A stretch of DNA of 64,000 bases from Pseudomonadota bacterium. Its GTDB lineage: Bacteria > Desulfobacterota > Desulfobacteria > Desulfobacterales > Desulfolunaceae. Position numbers and translations under genes: made by a program. Each line of letters begins with the position of its first letter. Positions within the stretch are counted from its first letter, which is position 1. The stretch spans positions 1 through 64,000 of the forward strand of contig JAHIRD010000030.1 of the NCBI GenBank assembly GCA_018818835.1, in the 5' to 3' direction. The notes under the pieces are model-generated. The model had not been told where the DNA came from. It saw only the letters and a list, made by a program, of their open reading frames with translations, and searched no databases. Positions 32,252 through 41,885 of the stretch are shown here, in pieces.

Positions 32252-35200
32252 ATGGGTGATGGGGGCCTCGGTGTTGAAGAGCCTATCGGGGTAAAAGGGT
32301 GGGCGAAGTATAAACAATGCAATGTTCCGAGATTGCAGTATCTGGTCCGCGGATTACTGCTTCTGTGTTTTCTATTGTATATTTACCTGATGCCGGAATC
32401 ACCCCTGATCATGAAAAACCTGGTATGGGCTTTCCTGGCAGGCTATACCCTCATTCAACTGTTTAACCGCTGGAAAATGGGCCACCACGGCTTGATCTGG
32501 CGCTATATAAGACCGAGTATCCTTGCAGATCTGACCCTGTCTTACTTTGTATGGATCTATGACCCCTGCCGACCCGCCCCCTTGATGCTTTTTACGGTTA
32601 TTATTGTTGTTGGTAATGCGATTCAATATGGAATTCGGGCCTTTAAACTGCTTAGCTGGAGTATCGGGCTTATCGCCCCCTTTGTTTTTCTTTTCCGGGT
32701 CTATTTTTTGGGTTTTAACACGCCTGAATTATTTCTTTTGATCATGTGTCTCGCGGTCCTTATCTATGTATATAAATTTATTTTTCGTATTGAAAAATTC
32801 CGAGATGAAACAAAGAAGAGAACACTTGCCCTTGAGATCAGTAATACCAAATACAGGAATATTTTTCAAAATACTGGGGCAGGACTCTTGGTGATTGAAC
32901 AAGACATGATTGTCTCCGAGTCCAACCCCAAGCTGGAAAAGATGACCGGTTACAGACGTGAGGAAATTGAAGGGAAATTTAAGTGGATGGATTTTGTGGA
33001 AAAAGAGGATCTGTCGCTGCTTAAGCAGTCTTACCTTGAAAGGCTTGCCAAGGGTGAGAGCCCTCCCACGGAATATGAATTTAAACTTGTGAGAAAAGAT
33101 GGTGAAATCATTCATGTTTTTTCTGAGGTGAATTCCGATGAAACAACCGGAAAGACCTTTGCATCAGTGATTGATATCACACCCAGAAAACAGGCTGAAT
33201 TCGCTCTTCAGAAAGCCCATGATGAGTTGGAGAAGCGGGTGGAGGAGCGGACGTCTGAACTCAAGGAAATCAACGACAAGTTGAAAAAAGCAAAAGAGTC
33301 GGCCGATGCTTCGGGGAAAGCGAAAAGCGAGTTTCTGGCCAATATGAGCCATGAAATAAGAACCCCCATGAATGCAATTATCGGGATGTGCGATCTTGTG
33401 ATGCATACGGATATGAACCGCAAACAGAAAGAGTATCTCAGCATTGTCCGTTCTTCTTCACGGTCATTGCTTGAACTGATCAACGATATTTTGGATTTTT
33501 CAAAGATTGATGCAGGCAAACTGGGTTTTGAAAATGTCCCATTTTATCTCCGCTCTGTGATCGAAGAAGTGTCCGATATGTTTCTTGAAAGGAGCATGAC
33601 CAAAGATATTGAACTGGTGGTGGACATTGATGCTGATGCACCGCGTAAGCTTATTGCCGATCCATTAAGGCTGCGGCAGGTTCTGGCCAATCTTACATCC
33701 AATGCCTTTAAATTCACGAAAAAGGGAGAAATCTGCATTTCCGTGAAAATCCAGTCACGGGTGACTGACCGGGCCAGACTTGTTTTTTCTGTGAGGGATA
33801 CGGGTATCGGCATCGACTCAAGGATTTCCGATAAGCTTTTTGATGCCTTTGCCCAGGCTGACGGCTCCACCACTCGGAAATATGGCGGTACAGGTCTTGG
33901 GCTGGCCATATGCAAAAAAATCGTTACGATGATGGGTGGTACAATATGGGTTGAAAGTGAATTGGGCAAGGGCAGTTGCTTTTACTTTACCATTGAAACG
34001 GGAATTGTCAACGGCGACATCGAACTACCCCAGGTGGTGCCGCCCAACCTCAAGAATACGAAAGTCCTTATTGTGGATGACAATCCCTCAACATTGTTAA
34101 TCGTTAAGCGATTTGTGGAGTCATTCGGGTTCAGAACCGATCTGGCGAATTCGTCGGAGTCTGCTTTGCAGATGTATGCGTTGTCCCAGAGCCAGGAACC
34201 TTACAGTCTGATTATCATGGACGTCAAACTCCCGGGTATGGATGGTATTGATGTTATCAATCGGATCAAGAACGACGAAACCCGGAAAGCCCCGCCCATT
34301 ATCTGTATGGGTGGCTATGGCCGTGAAGGTGATGTGCAACGTGCCAGAGCTGCGGGGGTGGACAGCTTTCTAATGAAGCCAGTCAAGCAATCCATACTTT
34401 TTGACACCATTATGGAAATTTTTGGTTTCAGGGTCATGAAAAACCGCGATGATGCCCAGGGCTTGAGATCGTGGGATGAGTTTAACGATGTGAGGGTGCT
34501 TCTGGTGGAAGACAATCCCATCAACCAGATGGTGGCCACGGAAATATTGATCTCCGCAGGCATCACGGTGGATAAAGCCAGCAATGGTCTTGAAGCCATC
34601 GAAGCCATTCGGGGTACACACTTCGATGCGGTGCTGATGGATGTTCAGATGCCTGAAATGGACGGCCTTGAAGCCTCACGGTATATCAGGAATCAGTTGA
34701 AAATGACCGATGTGCCTATCATCGCCATGACAGCCCATGCCATGTATGGTGACAGGGAACGGTGCATTGCTGCAGGCATGGATGATTACGTACCCAAGCC
34801 CATTGACCGCAAGGAGCTTTTTTCAGCACTGAGAAATAACATCTCACGTCTTGATGAGGAGCTTGATTTTTTACATACCACCCACTCAAGTGATGGGGAG
34901 CATCAGACCTGCTCTGATAAATTCAGCCTTCCGGGACTGGATGTGGGGGAGGGTCTCCAGAGACTCGGAGGAAATTGGCACCGCTATTTTGAAATCAGTC
35001 GGGAATTCATAAGGTCATTTAAAAACTTTTTTATTGAGTTTACAGACGTCATTGAACAAGGTAATTATACAGATGCACGATTGCTGGCACATGCCCTGAA
35101 AGGTGCGTCGGGGAATATCTCAGCCTTTGAATTAAAGTCCGTTGCCGGCATTCTTGAACAAGCCTGTGTCAAAAAGAATATAGAACGGGTTGTCATGTTG

Positions 35201-35548
35201 ATTCCTGTGGTTGAGGAAGCATTTTTACGTGTATCCGATTCAATCGCCATGTTGGGACGCAAGGTGGAAACCAAGGTCCATGTGGTGGATCCATGCGGAA
35301 CGCTGGATCCTGAAAAGCTTTTTGCCCTGTTCAAGGACTTGGGCGAAGGCCTTAAAGAATCGGATCCTGTCAAATCGGAAACCTGTTTCAATGAAATTAA
35401 ACAGGGGTTCTCATTTGGTTCGGTTAACCCTGAATTCGAAGATCTTGGGCGTATCCTGGAAAGGCAGGTTGTCGAGTACAATTTTGAAGAGGCATGTCTT
35501 ACTCTGAAAACAATTGACAGGAAACTGAAGAAACAACTGGGGTTTTAG
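32252..35548 (+). CDS. RpfC-like hybrid histidine kinase (5-6 TM, PAS, HisKA, HATPase, two REC, HPt)
   Basis: 1,098 residues. An N-terminal membrane region of about 190 residues is followed by a PAS domain (about 205-320), a coiled coil, HisKA ([14 protein letters not shown]), HATPase ([25 protein letters not shown]), two receivers ([10 protein letters not shown]...[13 protein letters not shown] and [10 protein letters not shown]...[13 protein letters not shown]) and an HPt domain ([13 protein letters not shown]). It works in the inner membrane as a phosphorelay sensor. An HD-GYP regulator follows four bases after the stop, the RpfC-RpfG arrangement, although a PAS domain and second receiver are extra. 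A paralogue with the same architecture lies at 4789-8172. Confidence 0.93.
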
Positions 35549-35552
35549 TTAT

Positions 35553-36593
35553 ATGCGCGATTTGAGCACGTGCAGGGTTCTGCTTGTGGATGATACGAAA
35601 ACAAATATCGACATTCTGGTTCAGACTCTGAAAGATGATTTTAAACTGGGTGTTGCCTTGAATGGCAAAAAAGCCATTGAATATGCCAACAAAAACCATG
35701 TGGATCTTATCCTTCTGGATGTGCTGATGCCGGAGATGGATGGATATGATGTGTGCAGGCAATTGAAAGCGAATAAGGAAACACATGATATCCCCATCAT
35801 TTTTATCACGGCCATGGATGCTCCGGAACATAAGACCAGGGGTTTTGAAATGGGGGCCGTGGATTATATCACCAAACCCTTTGATATTTCGGAAGTCAAA
35901 GCCAGAGTCAGAACCCATTTGACCCTTATTACCTCCCAGGCCGAGTTGAAAGAGCAGAATTTTGTTCTGGAGGGAAAAGTCAAAGAGCGGACCAGGGAAC
36001 TGGAAGAAACCCAGATTGAAATTATCAATAGGCTGGGTCTGGCTTCGGAATACAGGGATGAGGGTACGGGCCAGCATGTCCAGCGGATGAGTGAATACTG
36101 CCGTCTGCTTGGTGAGGCTGTCGGTATGGAGAAAGAGGAATGCGAACTTATTGCCCTGGCAAGTACCATGCATGACGCCGGTAAAATCGGGATTGCTGAT
36201 AAAATTCTTCTCAAACCCGGAGCCTTGGACACCGAGGAATGGGAGGAAATGAAGAGACATTCCATCATTGGGGGCGAACTTTTGTCGGGGAGCAATTCAA
36301 AGTTAATGCAAATTGCTGAAATTATAGCAAAAACACATCATGAGAGATGGGACGGCAGCGGTTATTTCGAAGGACTCCGGGGGGATGAAATTCCCCTTGC
36401 GGGCAGAATTGTTTGCATCTGTGACGTGTTTGATGCGCTGGTGTCAGAACGACCTTACAAAAAAGCCTGGACGGTGAACGAGGCCATTCGTGAAATAGAA
36501 AACTGGAGTGGAAGCCATTTTGATCCCTTTCTTGCCAAGAAATTCATTAGTCTGAAGCCCCAACTTCAGGCGATTATCGATAAGTTGAGCTGA
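35553..36593 (+). CDS. Response regulator with HD-GYP-type phosphodiesterase domain
   Basis: 346 residues. A receiver (D56 in LILLDVLMPEMDG; lysine in YITKPFD) is joined by a coiled coil to an HD-GYP domain: H207-D208 in MHDAGKIGIADK and H262-H263 in KTHHERWDGSGYFEGLRGD. The GYP triplet is GYF here (270-272), while the HD and HH metal ligands are kept, so cyclic-di-GMP hydrolysis remains plausible but should be tested. It is most likely phosphorylated by the hybrid kinase encoded four bases upstream, and its stop overlaps the start of sbcB by one base. Confidence 0.92.
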   Translation: MRDLSTCRVLLVDDTKTNIDILVQTLKDDFKLGVALNGKKAIEYANKNHVDLILLDVLMPEMDGYDVCRQLKANKETHDIPIIFITAMDAPEHKTRGFEMGAVDYITKPFDISEVKARVRTHLTLITSQAELKEQNFVLEGKVKERTRELEETQIEIINRLGLASEYRDEGTGQHVQRMSEYCRLLGEAVGMEKEECELIALASTMHDAGKIGIADKILLKPGALDTEEWEEMKRHSIIGGELLSGSNSKLMQIAEIIAKTHHERWDGSGYFEGLRGDEIPLAGRIVCICDVFDALVSERPYKKAWTVNEAIREIENWSGSHFDPFLAKKFISLKPQLQAIIDKLS

Positions 36594-38023
36594 TGAAACG
36601 TTTCCTTTTCTATGATCTGGAAACAACCGGTTTAAACAAAGCTTTTGACCAGATCCTTCAATTTGCAGCAATCAGTACCGATGCAGAGCTCAGGGAAATA
36701 GAACGCTATTCCATCCGAGTAAAACTACGGCCGGATGTTGTCCCATCACCACGGGCTTCAATCACACACAGGATTGGTATTGCCGATACCCGTGACGGAC
36801 TTACCGAGTTTGAAGCGGCCCAGCATATTCATGCCCTTTTGAACACGCCGGGGACCCTTAGTCTGGGTTACAATACCCTGGGCTTTGATGACGAGTTTTT
36901 GCGATTTTGCTTTTACCGGAACCTGTTACCCCCCTATACCCATCAATATGCAAACCAATGTGGCCGCATGGATCTCCTGCCCATGGCAGTCCTTTACTAC
37001 CTTTACATGCCTGGCGTTATCACTTGGCCAGAGGTGGACGGGAAGCCCACACTGAAACTTGAACATATTTCCAGCCAAAACAATCTTGCCACAGGTAGGT
37101 CCCATGATGCCATGGTGGATGTGGAAGCCACGGTTGAGCTTGCCAGGCGGTTTATCTCGGAAAAGGGCATGTGGGATTATGTGATGGGTTATTTTAATAA
37201 GGCCAGTGACCAGGAGAGGATTTTTAAACTTCCCTCTGCCTTTGACTCTTCTGCCGGAATGCATCTTAAGGGGATCATGACCGGTAGCAAATTCGGAGCG
37301 GCTCAGCTTTATCAGGCCCCGGTACTTTATCTTGGGGATTCCATACCATACAAGAACCAGAGCCTCTGGCTGAAACTGGATGATGACGAACTGCGTCAAA
37401 CCAGGGCGGATGACTCCTTTGACAATGTCAGGGTTTTTCGGAAGCGTATGGGTGAACCCCAGATCATTCTTCCCCCCCTGGATCGTTTCATGGGGCGGCT
37501 CAGTGACGAACGTAAAGCACGGGTTGAGGAAAATCTGGCCTGGCTCCAGGGTGAAAAAAAGCTGTTTTATGCCATGATTTCCAGGTTCAGGGAATTCAGG
37601 TATCCTGATGTGGATGATGTGGATGTGGATGCGGCCCTGTACCTGTCCGGATTTCTCAGTCGTGAACAACAGACCCTTTGCCGCCTGTTTCATCAGCACA
37701 TCCGATCAGAAGGTGCGCAATTTATTTCGAAATTCGGTGAATGTCCCTTAGGCACACAGGCCACGCGGGTTCTTTTCAGGAATTTTCCGGATGCCCCGCT
37801 CAGTGGTCTTGACGATGGCTACCGGAAGTACATGGCCAGGGTTAGCCCGGAGGATGAGGCACTGGCCATGAAGGATTTTCGAAATGAAAAACGTCTCACG
37901 CCACGAAGCGCATTAAAGGAGATTGAAAAAATCAGGGCAGAGGATTCCGTGGATGAGGAACAGAAGCAGATACTTAACGAACTTGAGATTTATCTGAAAA
38001 ACACATTTTTATGTGAAATATAA
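36593..38023 (+). CDS. sbcB: Exodeoxyribonuclease I
   Basis: 476 residues, the normal length of ExoI. DEDDh exonuclease motifs are visible: FLFYDLETTGLN (first acidic pair), SLGYNTLGFDDEFLRF, and RSHDAMVDVEATVELA with the catalytic histidine and aspartate. The C-terminal SH3-like and helical regions follow. It degrades single-stranded DNA 3'-5' in recombination and mismatch repair. Its ATG overlaps the stop of the HD-GYP gene, implying translational coupling and an operon of functionally unrelated genes. Confidence 0.93.
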   Translation: MKRFLFYDLETTGLNKAFDQILQFAAISTDAELREIERYSIRVKLRPDVVPSPRASITHRIGIADTRDGLTEFEAAQHIHALLNTPGTLSLGYNTLGFDDEFLRFCFYRNLLPPYTHQYANQCGRMDLLPMAVLYYLYMPGVITWPEVDGKPTLKLEHISSQNNLATGRSHDAMVDVEATVELARRFISEKGMWDYVMGYFNKASDQERIFKLPSAFDSSAGMHLKGIMTGSKFGAAQLYQAPVLYLGDSIPYKNQSLWLKLDDDELRQTRADDSFDNVRVFRKRMGEPQIILPPLDRFMGRLSDERKARVEENLAWLQGEKKLFYAMISRFREFRYPDVDDVDVDAALYLSGFLSREQQTLCRLFHQHIRSEGAQFISKFGECPLGTQATRVLFRNFPDAPLSGLDDGYRKYMARVSPEDEALAMKDFRNEKRLTPRSALKEIEKIRAEDSVDEEQKQILNELEIYLKNTFLCEI

Positions 38024-38027
38024 AGAA

Positions 38028-38066
38028 GATGAACTCGTAAAAAGTCGACAGATGGCTGACGCCATC
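38028..38066 (+). repeat. Left 39-bp terminal inverted repeat of a mini-element
   Basis: The core ACTCGTAAAAAGTC is followed by a small hairpin GATGGC-TGAC-GCCATC. It matches the reverse complement of 38345-38383 at 37 of 39 positions. It begins five bases after the sbcB stop. Confidence 0.88.
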
Positions 38067-38342
38067 TATAAAGGGCATTGCATGGAACCTGTGGACCGGA
38101 ATACACTGATTGAAAGCTTGGCATATGCCTTAAAAAAAATACTTCTTCACAGTCTGGAAGGGCTGGATCGCAAGGCCATGGAATCGAGTATCGACTGCTT
38201 TATGGACCAAGAGGTTGTCTGTCTGAGTGATGAAGACATTCTGGAAAAATTCTATACCCCCGAGGATTCTATCCGGCGTTTTATGGATTTTTTGGAAAAC
38301 TCGGGGGCTCTTGAGGATACCTTGCACAAGACCCTTCATTAA
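38052..38342 (+). CDS. Small ORF inside the inverted-repeat mini-element, function unknown
   Basis: About 96 residues from ATG 38052; a frame from GTG 38013 overlaps sbcB and another ATG lies at 38082. The body (DRNTLIESLAYALKKILLHS, then SIDCFMDQEVVCLSDEDILE and YTPEDSIRRFMDFLENSG) is amphipathic, acidic and helical, with coding-like base use. It ends three bases before the right repeat. I do not recognise a family. It may be a passenger gene of the element or a sbcB-linked gene flanked by repeats. Reality is moderately supported. Confidence 0.45.
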   Translation: MADAIYKGHCMEPVDRNTLIESLAYALKKILLHSLEGLDRKAMESSIDCFMDQEVVCLSDEDILEKFYTPEDSIRRFMDFLENSGALEDTLHKTLH

Positions 38343-38401: not shown

Positions 38402-39775
38402 TTAGCAGGCTTTATCCGCAAACCTCAGATCAACGAAATCATCCAGATTGATGACTTTGCCGATATCCATCTCGTGAAACATATATTGCTGGATTTTATC
38501 CAAATCTTTTTTTTCAGGATAGAGATGGTTCATGGTGATTCCGCCCTCCTGATTGAGGACATTGGTAAGAACGTTGGTGTTCAAACCCAGGCTCTTATCA
38601 GGATCAAGGAAGTTTACGGCGATATTTGCTGCTTTATCCTTATGCTTTTCAACATATTTCCCCGCCTTTACAAGCAGGTTTGTTAATTCGAAGACTGCAT
38701 CGGGGTAACCCTGAACCACCTCGTCACGAAGGGCAACAACGCAGCAGGGATGATCTTTCCACAGGGTGGCGGAAATAAACTCCATTTCCCCGATTCCGGC
38801 TGAAATGGTTTTGGTGCAGATGGGCTCGGCAACGATAAAACCTCCCACATCTTCATTTTCTTTCATAATGGCGGGCATTTTGATGGGCGGAACCACTTCG
38901 AAACGGACATCAATGGCTTTTTTCCCGGGGACACCCGGTTTCAACCCAAGGCCCGTGAGAAATTTATGGGCAAGCATATTGTGTATGGACATTTTATGGG
39001 GGATATTGACCACTTTGTATTTGTAAAAATCCTTTATGGAATCGGATGGTTCTGTCGCGTAGTTCTTGTTGCGAATAAAACCGCTTCCGTTTTTATGGGC
39101 CAGAAGAACCAGTTTGATGGGGACATTAAAGGCAAAGAGATCCATGGCTATGGGGGCCAGGACAAAAGCCCCGTCCACACGAGCTGTTTCAAGTTTTTCT
39201 TGAATAGGATTCCAGCCGTTGATGCATTCTGTTTCAAGGATGAAGGTATCGGGTTTGACCTGGCCGGTTTCGATCTGATGTTTAAGAACACCCAGGATCA
39301 AATGGTCGGTAATCTGGATGTGGGCCAGTTTGATCTTAACCTTGCCACCCACCATTTCAGGAACACGTATTTCAGACGTTTTATCCAGGGTGCCAAGGAA
39401 TACCGCTTCAATTTTCTTTTTGAGTTCTTCGGTATCAAAGGGTTTCGAGATATGGCCATTGCCTCCATTTTCCTTGACGACCATCTGCTGGGTTTTATCG
39501 CCCTGGGCCGTGGCCATGATAAAGGGCATCGTCTTGTATATGGCATGACCCCGAACCCATTGGAGCAGCGCAAGCCCGTCCATATTCGGCATATTCCAGT
39601 CACTGATAATCAGATCAATTTTTCCACCCTCTTCAAGTTTCTTGACGGCGTCTTTTCCGTCAATCGCCATGAGTATATTCCTGAAACCTCCTTTGTTCAG
39701 ATACTGCTTGAACATCAGGCGCATGGTTCCGGAATCATCAACAACTAAAATGGTCATATTCATGTCAAGGGGCAT
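38402..39775 (-). CDS. CheY receiver fused to cytoplasmic NrtA/NasS-like binding domain
   Basis: 457 residues, ATG preceded by AAGGAG. Residues 1-125 are a CheY-type receiver (acidic pair D13-D14, phospho-acceptor D59 in LIISDWNMPNMDG, K111 in HISKPFD). After a short linker, residues 145-457 resemble the NrtA/CmpA/NMT1-like substrate-binding fold (AHIQITDHLILGVLKHQIET, DGAFVLAPIAMDLF, KDHPCCVVALRDEVVQGYPD). There is no signal peptide, so the binding domain is cytoplasmic, as in the nitrate sensor NasS. It is encoded directly downstream of a receiver-less paralogue (39835-40773). A ligand-modulated receiver is inferred; the ligand is unknown. Confidence 0.85.
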   Translation of the reverse strand: MPLDMNMTILVVDDSGTMRLMFKQYLNKGGFRNILMAIDGKDAVKKLEEGGKIDLIISDWNMPNMDGLALLQWVRGHAIYKTMPFIMATAQGDKTQQMVVKENGGNGHISKPFDTEELKKKIEAVFLGTLDKTSEIRVPEMVGGKVKIKLAHIQITDHLILGVLKHQIETGQVKPDTFILETECINGWNPIQEKLETARVDGAFVLAPIAMDLFAFNVPIKLVLLAHKNGSGFIRNKNYATEPSDSIKDFYKYKVVNIPHKMSIHNMLAHKFLTGLGLKPGVPGKKAIDVRFEVVPPIKMPAIMKENEDVGGFIVAEPICTKTISAGIGEMEFISATLWKDHPCCVVALRDEVVQGYPDAVFELTNLLVKAGKYVEKHKDKAANIAVNFLDPDKSLGLNTNVLTNVLNQEGGITMNHLYPEKKDLDKIQQYMFHEMDIGKVINLDDFVDLRFADKAC

Positions 39776-39834
39776 TGCGACTCTCCTTATATTGAGTTAA
39801 CAGCTGGAACGTCTATTTCTGATATCGTAAGGGC

Positions 39835-40773
39835 TTATTTTGCTCCCGCAGCTTTTGCGAATCGTGGGTCAACAAATACATTCATATCAATGGCGGTTGT
39901 CATGATGTTCATATCATGGATCATGTAATTCTGGATGACGATCAGGTCATTGATTTTTGGGAAAAGTTCACTGGTCGTGATTCTGTCCGAAGGATCAGAG
40001 AGGACCGAGGAGATAATGTCCACGCCCTGTCCCAGGAATTCGGCTCCCACCACGGCGGCTTTCCCTGGATTTTTATCCACGAAAAAGCCGGATTGGACAA
40101 AACTGTTGGTTATCTCCTGAATGGCCTGGGGGTAACGCTCAATGATCTCGTCTCTGGCCACAAAAACACAGCAGGGGTGACCGGGCCAGAGGTCCTTTGA
40201 CAGACAGACCTGCTCGCCATACCCTTGTTTAATGGCCAGGGTGCCAATGGGTTCTGCAACAATAAAACCTCCGATTTCACCGTCTTCATCATACTGGATA
40301 GCCTCGGGCATCATGGAGGGTGCCATGACTTCCAGAAAAACATCGGCATGGGGGTCTTTGGTGGTTCCTGGCTTGAGCCCCATTTCAGCCAGCAGTTTAT
40401 GGAAGAGCATGTGGTGGACACTGAGTTGGTAAGGGATCAGAACAATCTTGCCTTTGAAATCCTGCATGCGTTTAATGCCTGCAGCCTTGTTTTTGACCAG
40501 AATACTTCCTGATCTGTGGGTGAACAATATCAGTTTGATGGGAACACCGGATTTGAACAGGTCCATGGCAGTGGGTGCCAGGATAAAGGCTCCTTCAAGG
40601 CTTCCGTCACTCAGGGCATCTGCCACCTGGTTCCAGCCATGCATGAGAACCGGTTCAAGGGTGCAGTGTTTCAGTGTTTCAACACCTGTTTTAATCTTAT
40701 CTGCTGAAATTCCGAGAATCAGGTGGTCGGTGATTTTTAAGTGGCCTATCCTGATGACAGGGTTGTCAGGCAT
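39835..40773 (-). CDS. Stand-alone cytoplasmic NrtA/NasS-like binding protein
   Basis: 312 residues, ATG preceded by AAGGAG and no signal peptide. It shares with the C-terminal half of the next protein the strings ITDHLILG, GWN, GAF(V/I)LAP(I/T)AMDLF and HPCCV, so it is a paralogue. It looks like an ABC-type binding protein for a small molecule, but no permease or ATPase gene is nearby and it lacks an export signal, which suggests sensing rather than transport. The gene lies 59 bases upstream of the receiver fusion on the same strand, an operon. Confidence 0.82.
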   Translation of the reverse strand: MPDNPVIRIGHLKITDHLILGISADKIKTGVETLKHCTLEPVLMHGWNQVADALSDGSLEGAFILAPTAMDLFKSGVPIKLILFTHRSGSILVKNKAAGIKRMQDFKGKIVLIPYQLSVHHMLFHKLLAEMGLKPGTTKDPHADVFLEVMAPSMMPEAIQYDEDGEIGGFIVAEPIGTLAIKQGYGEQVCLSKDLWPGHPCCVFVARDEIIERYPQAIQEITNSFVQSGFFVDKNPGKAAVVGAEFLGQGVDIISSVLSDPSDRITTSELFPKINDLIVIQNYMIHDMNIMTTAIDMNVFVDPRFAKAAGAK

Positions 40774-41366: not shown

Positions 41367-41885
41367 ATGAAAATTGCCGATTCGGACAGTATCAAAGCAG
41401 GTGAGAAGGAATTGATTTCTTCTATTATGGAAAAATTGAATCCTGAAACACTTTCACGTGTGGCCACCAAAAACATGTCACCGGACCAGATGGAATTTGT
41501 TCAAGGGGACATGATGATCTGGGACAACCGGATTGTCTACAAAATGAATTTTAAGGCGACTCTGGATATCTCGGTGATGTTCGACAGGAACGGGGAACTT
41601 GTATTTACGGACAGGTCCGAAGACATCAATGCTTCGGGATTGTCAGATTCCAGTGACGATATGGATGAAGAATGGGAACATGAGCAAGATCATGTGGATA
41701 CGGACACCATGGATGCCACTGCGTTTGAGGAGGTGATTCTTTCCGACGATGCCCCGACACAGTCACCGGACGACGAGATGTCCGACGTGTTTAGTAGAAC
41801 ACGTGAATTCTGGAATAAAAAGACAGAAGAGGCCCTTGGATCCGCGAATGAAATCACCTTGCCTCCGGGAGAGCCTGACCTGTAA
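41367..41885 (+). CDS. Acidic hypothetical protein
   Basis: 172 residues, ATG about nine bases after GGGGAG, and a consensus promoter upstream. The N-terminal 90 residues look folded (ISSIMEKLNPETLSRVATKN, then YKMNFKATLDISVMFDRNGE). The middle is strongly acidic (DDMDEEWEHEQDHVDTDTMD) and probably disordered, the C-terminus has VFSRTREFWNKKTEEALG. No signal peptide or membrane segment. I do not recognise a family. It precedes acetyl-CoA synthetase by about 210 bases on the same strand. Confidence 0.75.
   Translation: MKIADSDSIKAGEKELISSIMEKLNPETLSRVATKNMSPDQMEFVQGDMMIWDNRIVYKMNFKATLDISVMFDRNGELVFTDRSEDINASGLSDSSDDMDEEWEHEQDHVDTDTMDATAFEEVILSDDAPTQSPDDEMSDVFSRTREFWNKKTEEALGSANEITLPPGEPDL

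Follow-up and report, generated by a model that had tools for sequence, protein, structure and literature searches.

A cytoplasmic binding-protein domain joined to a phosphorylatable receiver recurs in Desulfobacterota with links to chemosensory genes

What does a binding-protein fold of the type used by ABC importers do inside the cell, joined to a CheY-type receiver? Inputs to chemotaxis and two-component systems are usually thought to sense through PAS, Cache or GAF domains, or through periplasmic binding proteins outside the membrane. The window analysed here, a 64,000-nucleotide stretch of a Desulfobacterota contig, encodes a protein in which a receiver (REC) precedes an NrtA-type solute-binding protein (SBP) domain, and a solo paralogue of that domain next to it (Table 1). 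The sequence-only reading of this locus, made before any database search, had seen in the pair a layout without a described pathway. This has held so far: no published REC–SBP fusion and no published combination of NMT1_2 with CheW was found in the literature covered, a scope that leaves out most subscription journals.

Table 1. Features of the fusion locus in window coordinates.
Feature	Position	Strand	Description and basis
REC–SBP fusion protein, without CheW domain	38402..39775	(-)	457 aa; intact ORF, Pfam, model
CheY-type receiver (residues 9–123; D59 phospho-acceptor, T89, K111)	39407..39751	(-)	Pfam PF00072
Cytoplasmic NMT1_2/NrtA-type binding-protein domain (residues 144–456)	38408..39346	(-)	Pfam, motifs, fold
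AAGGAG ribosome-binding site ahead of fusion gene	39783..39788	(-)	Direct sequence reading
Solo cytoplasmic SBP paralogue	39835..40773	(-)	312 aa; intact ORF, Pfam, AlphaFold2 model pLDDT 96
Small acidic protein	41367..41885	(+)	172 aa; homologues beside window-type fusions

Pfam assigns Response_reg (E 9.8e-25) to the receiver of the fusion and, above cut-off, NMT1_2 (PF13379; residues 145–385, E 2.1e-28) to its SBP domain, and the AlphaFold2 model of the whole protein has a pLDDT of 90. In fold searches the receiver superposes on CheY at about 0.9–1.2 Å, while the best folds for the SBP part are 3UN6, NrtA, CmpA and the regulatory domain of CmpC. The SBP domain carries the motifs ITDH, WNP, APxAMD, H-NGS, PHKMSIH, VAEP and WxxHPCC and is 84% identical to that of the orthologue in genome G561 over 310 columns. 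Neither the fusion nor the solo protein has a signal peptide, no leader precedes the SBP fold in the sequence, and no permease gene adjoins the pair in the window. A plain solute-binding protein of an ABC importer, with its leader and adjacent permease, is therefore rejected for both. As the sequence-only reading had proposed, an intact receiver and a NasS/NrtA-like fold, apparently a cytoplasmic sensor with a working-type receiver, are thus combined in one chain. Only about 60 bp separate the stop codon of the fusion from the facing gene, so that a CheW remnant 3' of it is impossible. The facing 109-aa ORF (38013–38342, plus strand) has no family match; a 52%-identical homologue occupies the same place in the locus of a family mate (L207).

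The solo protein, which begins with MPDNPVIRIGH, has NMT1_2 as its sole Pfam domain (E 5.5e-26) and shares about 43% identity with the SBP domain of the fusion. Its model matches 3UN6, NrtA and CmpA with Z scores of 35–39, and by PF13379 and fold both proteins belong to the NMT1_2/NrtA–SsuA type. The two genes share a strand with a gap of 59 bp, a good ribosome-binding site precedes the fusion, and the solo gene probably comes first in an operon. The same gene pair is present in four other loci (L207, L208, L209 and L216) and the fusion recurs in 102 distinct proteins, which excludes chance or an assembly error as its origin. A third copy in the host genome is a second solo SBP, encoded elsewhere (L001/L155, 8464–9402) beside a 413-aa protein resembling a MerR-type regulator; a similar pairing of a solo SBP with a MerR-like protein is seen in L152, L153 and L217.

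The surroundings of the pair are conserved in L207, where a hybrid kinase, an HD-GYP regulator, an exonuclease, the solo gene, the fusion and the acidic protein all recur. In the window, 32252–36593 encodes a hybrid histidine kinase (PAS, HisKA, two receivers and Hpt) and an HD-GYP response regulator. Since L207 preserves their arrangement with respect to the pair, they are candidates for the kinase and a partner of the fusion. The acidic protein has no Pfam match and consists of an N-terminal domain of ~85 residues, an acidic linker and a C-terminal FW-type motif (TREFW). Its homologues stand beside the fusion in at least nine loci (L020, L151, L204, L206, L207, L208, L209, L215 and L216). 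Most homologues end in an Sx(D/E)FW-type motif, and the one in L211 (3496–4890) has several repeats of it. The acidic protein looks like a tethered linear-motif partner.

The REC–SBP module is no isolated case: it is widespread, and its use is combinatorial. A search for REC–NMT1/NrtA-like fusions and their neighbours, which the sequence-only reading had suggested, yielded 102 distinct fusions in the census of fetched Desulfobacterota loci: 50 REC–SBP–CheW proteins, 50 REC–SBP proteins and two tandem REC–SBP proteins. Among the 50 REC–SBP proteins, 35 stop no more than 50 residues after the SBP domain and the remainder carry further domains. Scanning a single genome for each species gave 17 full-length relatives, nearly all from Desulfobacterota or deltaproteobacterial assemblies by title, and a CheW domain follows in 11 of them. 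Judged by bit score and open-frame length, fusions occur in about 20 of the 395 phylum genomes searched and in about 43 of the 194 from the order. No REC–SBP fusion appeared at the E 1e-40 level in the 349 Pseudomonadota and 148 Nitrospirota genomes sampled, which contained exported-type cousins only; judged on these samples, the fusion is likely restricted to Desulfobacterota.

REC is N-terminal in nearly all fusions, with a linker to the SBP domain of mostly 15–25 residues. In an alignment of 105 rows, 104 of them receiver domains and one the reference from the window, the family receivers show the acidic pair, Asp, Thr/Ser and Lys of phosphorylatable receivers, with D14, D59 and K111 present in every row and T89 in 104. 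The invariance of D59 and K111 argues that receiver phosphorylation is in use across the family.

What follows the REC–SBP unit varies. Besides the CheW forms, two fusions continue into a CheA-like core with dimerisation, ATPase and CheW domains (L179, L183), six into HATPase_c_2, an RsbW-like ATPase, and STAS (L188, L189, L195, L198, L202, L235), and two into a SpoIIE phosphatase (L191, L193). Another HATPase_c_2–STAS form has an additional N-terminal ATPase domain (L194), and in L182 the REC–SBP unit is placed after a DUF3369 histidine kinase. Both tandem proteins (L178, 5968–9567; L187, 4790–8407) have the order REC–SBP–REC–SBP, are about 1200 residues long and end in CheW. Because the short, steady linker is kept while the output changes, REC and SBP appear to act as one unit. 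The HATPase_c_2–STAS and SpoIIE outputs point to partner switching, not motility, in some members, and four of the HATPase–STAS forms (L188, L195, L198 and L202) adjoin a CheA–REC-type gene and a CheW gene, assigned with Pfam on L188.

Linkage or fusion to CheA, CheW, CheX, CheD, CheB or CheY places relatives of the window fusion in chemosensory networks. In L128 and L129, both from the window's order, the fusion and the solo gene flank a CheX gene, assigned with Pfam on the L128 gene. The solo gene has CheY as a neighbour in L154 and L209; L020 and L206 each include CheD, and L206 has CheB as well. In L008 there are two kinases resembling CheA, together with a CheC/CheX-like protein. MCP genes number about 20 in the host genome, which also has 11 CheW matches and four CheX matches, and no che gene is adjacent to the fusion in the window. 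The chemotaxis role of the window copy rests on its relatives, as it has neither a CheW domain nor an adjoining che gene. We think it probable, with reservations, that the window fusion serves a chemosensory network as a phosphorylatable sensor, similar to CheV, of a ligand in the cytoplasm.

How the window protein came to be without CheW depends on the tree. In a larger, quick tree the CheW-less proteins related to it form one clade (23 rows, SH-aLRT 100) nested among CheW forms (SH-aLRT 92 and 94), and this nesting suggests loss of CheW. A smaller, more careful tree places the window clade as sister to the CheW forms. CheW was probably lost in the window clade, a direction of change that varies with the tree used. 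The same clade has retained the solo gene. With assignments made by hand from the order search and the tree, a solo SBP is present in 18 of 19 genomes of the CheW-less clade versus two of 24 with other fusions (Fisher p 5e-9), and, counted by family, in 8/9 versus 1/15 (p 1e-4). The adjacent paralogue to which the sequence-only reading had drawn attention is indeed conserved. In Desulfoluna (L004, 7053–7883; L006, 4168–4944) the neighbour of the fusion is a shorter, strongly diverged SBP relative (43–55 bits), and the L004 genome has a normal solo copy elsewhere.

The absence of a partner permease, also claimed for this pair, is true of the window but does not extend to all close relatives. 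Among the loci read, an ABC importer stands beside the fusion at L020, L151, L204, L206 and L215 only, all of the window's clade, where the fusion, an ATPase, a Tat-exported SBP of the importer's own, a permease and a solo SBP form an operon-like run. The cytoplasmic SBP modules could thus gauge the substrate of a NitT/TauT-type importer and gate the transporter, as the NrtA-like C-terminal domain of NrtC/CmpC may do; the regulatory domains of these two are among the closest folds. We regard such transport feedback as unlikely: the importer is absent from the window and from nearly all CheW forms, and the CheD and CheB genes that flank some of them point to chemosensing of the imported compound. 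Signal peptides and ABC permeases are not general among the homologues, which have an N-terminal REC in nearly all cases and an importer at those five loci.

The exported members of the family, the only kind found in Pseudomonadota and Nitrospirota, have neighbours of another sort. In all 11 loci read, an exported cousin directly adjoins a sensor-like membrane protein; the eight such neighbours scanned, including that in L144 from the window's phylum, are MCPs, Cache–PAS histidine kinases or GGDEF/EAL proteins, and MCPs are the neighbours in L144 and L238–L240. Since its exported cousins adjoin MCPs, kinases and GGDEF/EAL proteins, the NrtA/SsuA-like branch that holds the REC–SBP proteins looks largely sensory. 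In Desulfobacterota, further exported cousins are parts of importers, some of them beside a CO dehydrogenase gene. In L141 (7948–10871) and L143 (7501–10424) the genes for the exported SBP, permease and ATPase directly adjoin that for the CO dehydrogenase catalytic subunit. In L126 an exported cousin lies beside a proton-pumping antiporter-type subunit. These neighbours suggest, though nothing in them is decisive, that the ligand is a one-carbon or inorganic-carbon compound or a metal.

The cleft-type motifs H-NGS, SxH, VAEP and HPCC are nearly unchanged in the fusions and solo proteins and largely retained in the closest exported cousins. The conserved Cys–Cys of HPCC stands where the HPGKV of CmpC-type proteins has a basic residue, Lys. 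This replacement does not favour nitrate, which from the pocket sequence is a doubtful ligand, and a nitrate-like ligand receives no support from the pocket residues. The same motif bears on a further reading, in which a ligand-dissociable complex of solo protein and fusion governs an output that binds RNA or DNA, and chemotaxis plays no part. Its model is NasS–NasT, in which NasS, a cytoplasmic NrtA relative of the same fold class, holds a REC–ANTAR protein (PMC3795266); the adjacency and co-retention of the solo and fusion genes would suit such a complex. Yet no ANTAR or DNA-binding domain was found among the family members examined, the linked or fused partners are Che proteins, HATPase–STAS and SpoIIE, and NasS reportedly keeps all nitrate-coordinating residues, whereas here Cys replaces the Lys of HPGKV. 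We hold this arrangement to be rather improbable, and membership of the window pair in the NasS–NasT system of nitrate assimilation itself is rejected on its single chain, the lack of ANTAR by Pfam, the Cys–Cys pocket motif and the different outputs. That the SBP domain binds no ligand and is purely structural or a docking surface, with the receiver alone signalling, has precedents in SBP-fold proteins recruited elsewhere to non-transport roles, but the almost unchanged cleft-type motifs would be unexpected after loss of binding, and we give this reading very little credence.

In the preferred, CheV-like reading, REC–SBP would be a metabolite-sensing input module of the cytoplasm that serves the chemosensory and phosphosignalling networks of Desulfobacterota. 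The SBP half, from the sensory NrtA/SsuA-like branch, would close on a small cytosolic ligand, and a kinase, either hybrid or of CheA type, would phosphorylate the receiver half. The short linker would hold the halves together so that ligand binding and phosphorylation are read in combination, an arrangement similar to the coupling of receiver and CheW in CheV, and the joint state would be passed to CheA, directly or via CheW. In most members the C-terminal CheW may anchor the protein in the array of chemoreceptors. The fusion of the window clade may work instead with the neighbouring solo SBP and probably also with the acidic linear-motif protein; because it has the same pocket motifs as the fusion, the solo SBP is likely to serve as another sensor, as a competitor or as a partner in a dimer. 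The sequences and models directly establish the domain architecture, the fold, the conservation of catalytic residues, the linkage and co-occurrence of the genes, and their distribution. We infer that the solo and fusion proteins make physical contact, that a ligand is bound, that CheA phosphorylates the receiver and that swimming is affected.

For the family as a whole we lean, if only slightly, towards a swappable REC–SBP cassette that couples the state of a cytosolic ligand to phosphorylation and feeds arrays, CheA-like kinases, RsbW/STAS switches and SpoIIE, with exported cousins feeding MCPs, sensor kinases and GGDEF/EAL proteins from outside; a single compound may then be reported by one family both within the cell and beyond its membrane. 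If this is true, a binding protein locked to a receiver inside the cell and reused on several outputs would be a new class of cytoplasmic sensor in a phylum of sulfate reducers. It would then be testable what CheV-type receivers do when their chain also holds a ligand sensor, and which metabolite inside the cell directs these anaerobes.

Several known systems share parts of this design. The sequence-only reading took NasS as its parallel, which stands for the fold and the cytoplasmic sensor, paired in NasS–NasT with a receiver-containing protein (PMC3795266). There, the two are separate chains with an ANTAR output and nitrate or nitrite as ligand, whereas the window has one chain with another pocket motif and the outputs of the family are chemosensory. 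The closest mechanistic parallel is instead the chemotaxis coupling of CheV and CheWS. CheV, for which a phosphorylation-dependent interaction with a subset of chemoreceptors has been reported (PMC12691637), is likewise cytoplasmic and joins a phosphorylatable receiver to CheW, as about half of the REC–SBP family does. REC–SBP–CheW proteins have the reverse order, REC first and CheW last, with the SBP domain in between, and the window protein differs from CheV further in having no CheW domain by Pfam. CheWS of Treponema, a fusion of CheW to a CheR-like SAM sensor, is described in PMC10653840 as the first characterised CheW-fused sensor; it too equips an array protein that contains CheW with a domain for sensing a ligand in the cytoplasm, with another sensor fold and no receiver. 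Fig. S10 of the same paper covers 30 undescribed CheW architectures, among which REC–NMT1_2–CheW may be included. The C-terminal regulatory domain of NrtC/CmpC is also a fused cytoplasmic NrtA-like domain and among the closest folds (8wm7, 9uai, 9uak), but its fusion partner is a transporter ATPase instead of a receiver or a domain of chemotaxis proteins. The S. aureus protein 3UN6 (the best match, Z 38.7, 25% identity), NrtA, CmpA, TauA and SsuA have the same fold and are solute-binding proteins of ABC importers, unlike the window proteins, which carry no export signal. What sets the REC–SBP family apart from CheV, CheWS, NasS–NasT and NrtC/CmpC is that it unites a receiver with a binding protein of the cytoplasm and with outputs to chemotaxis; none of the others combines all three.
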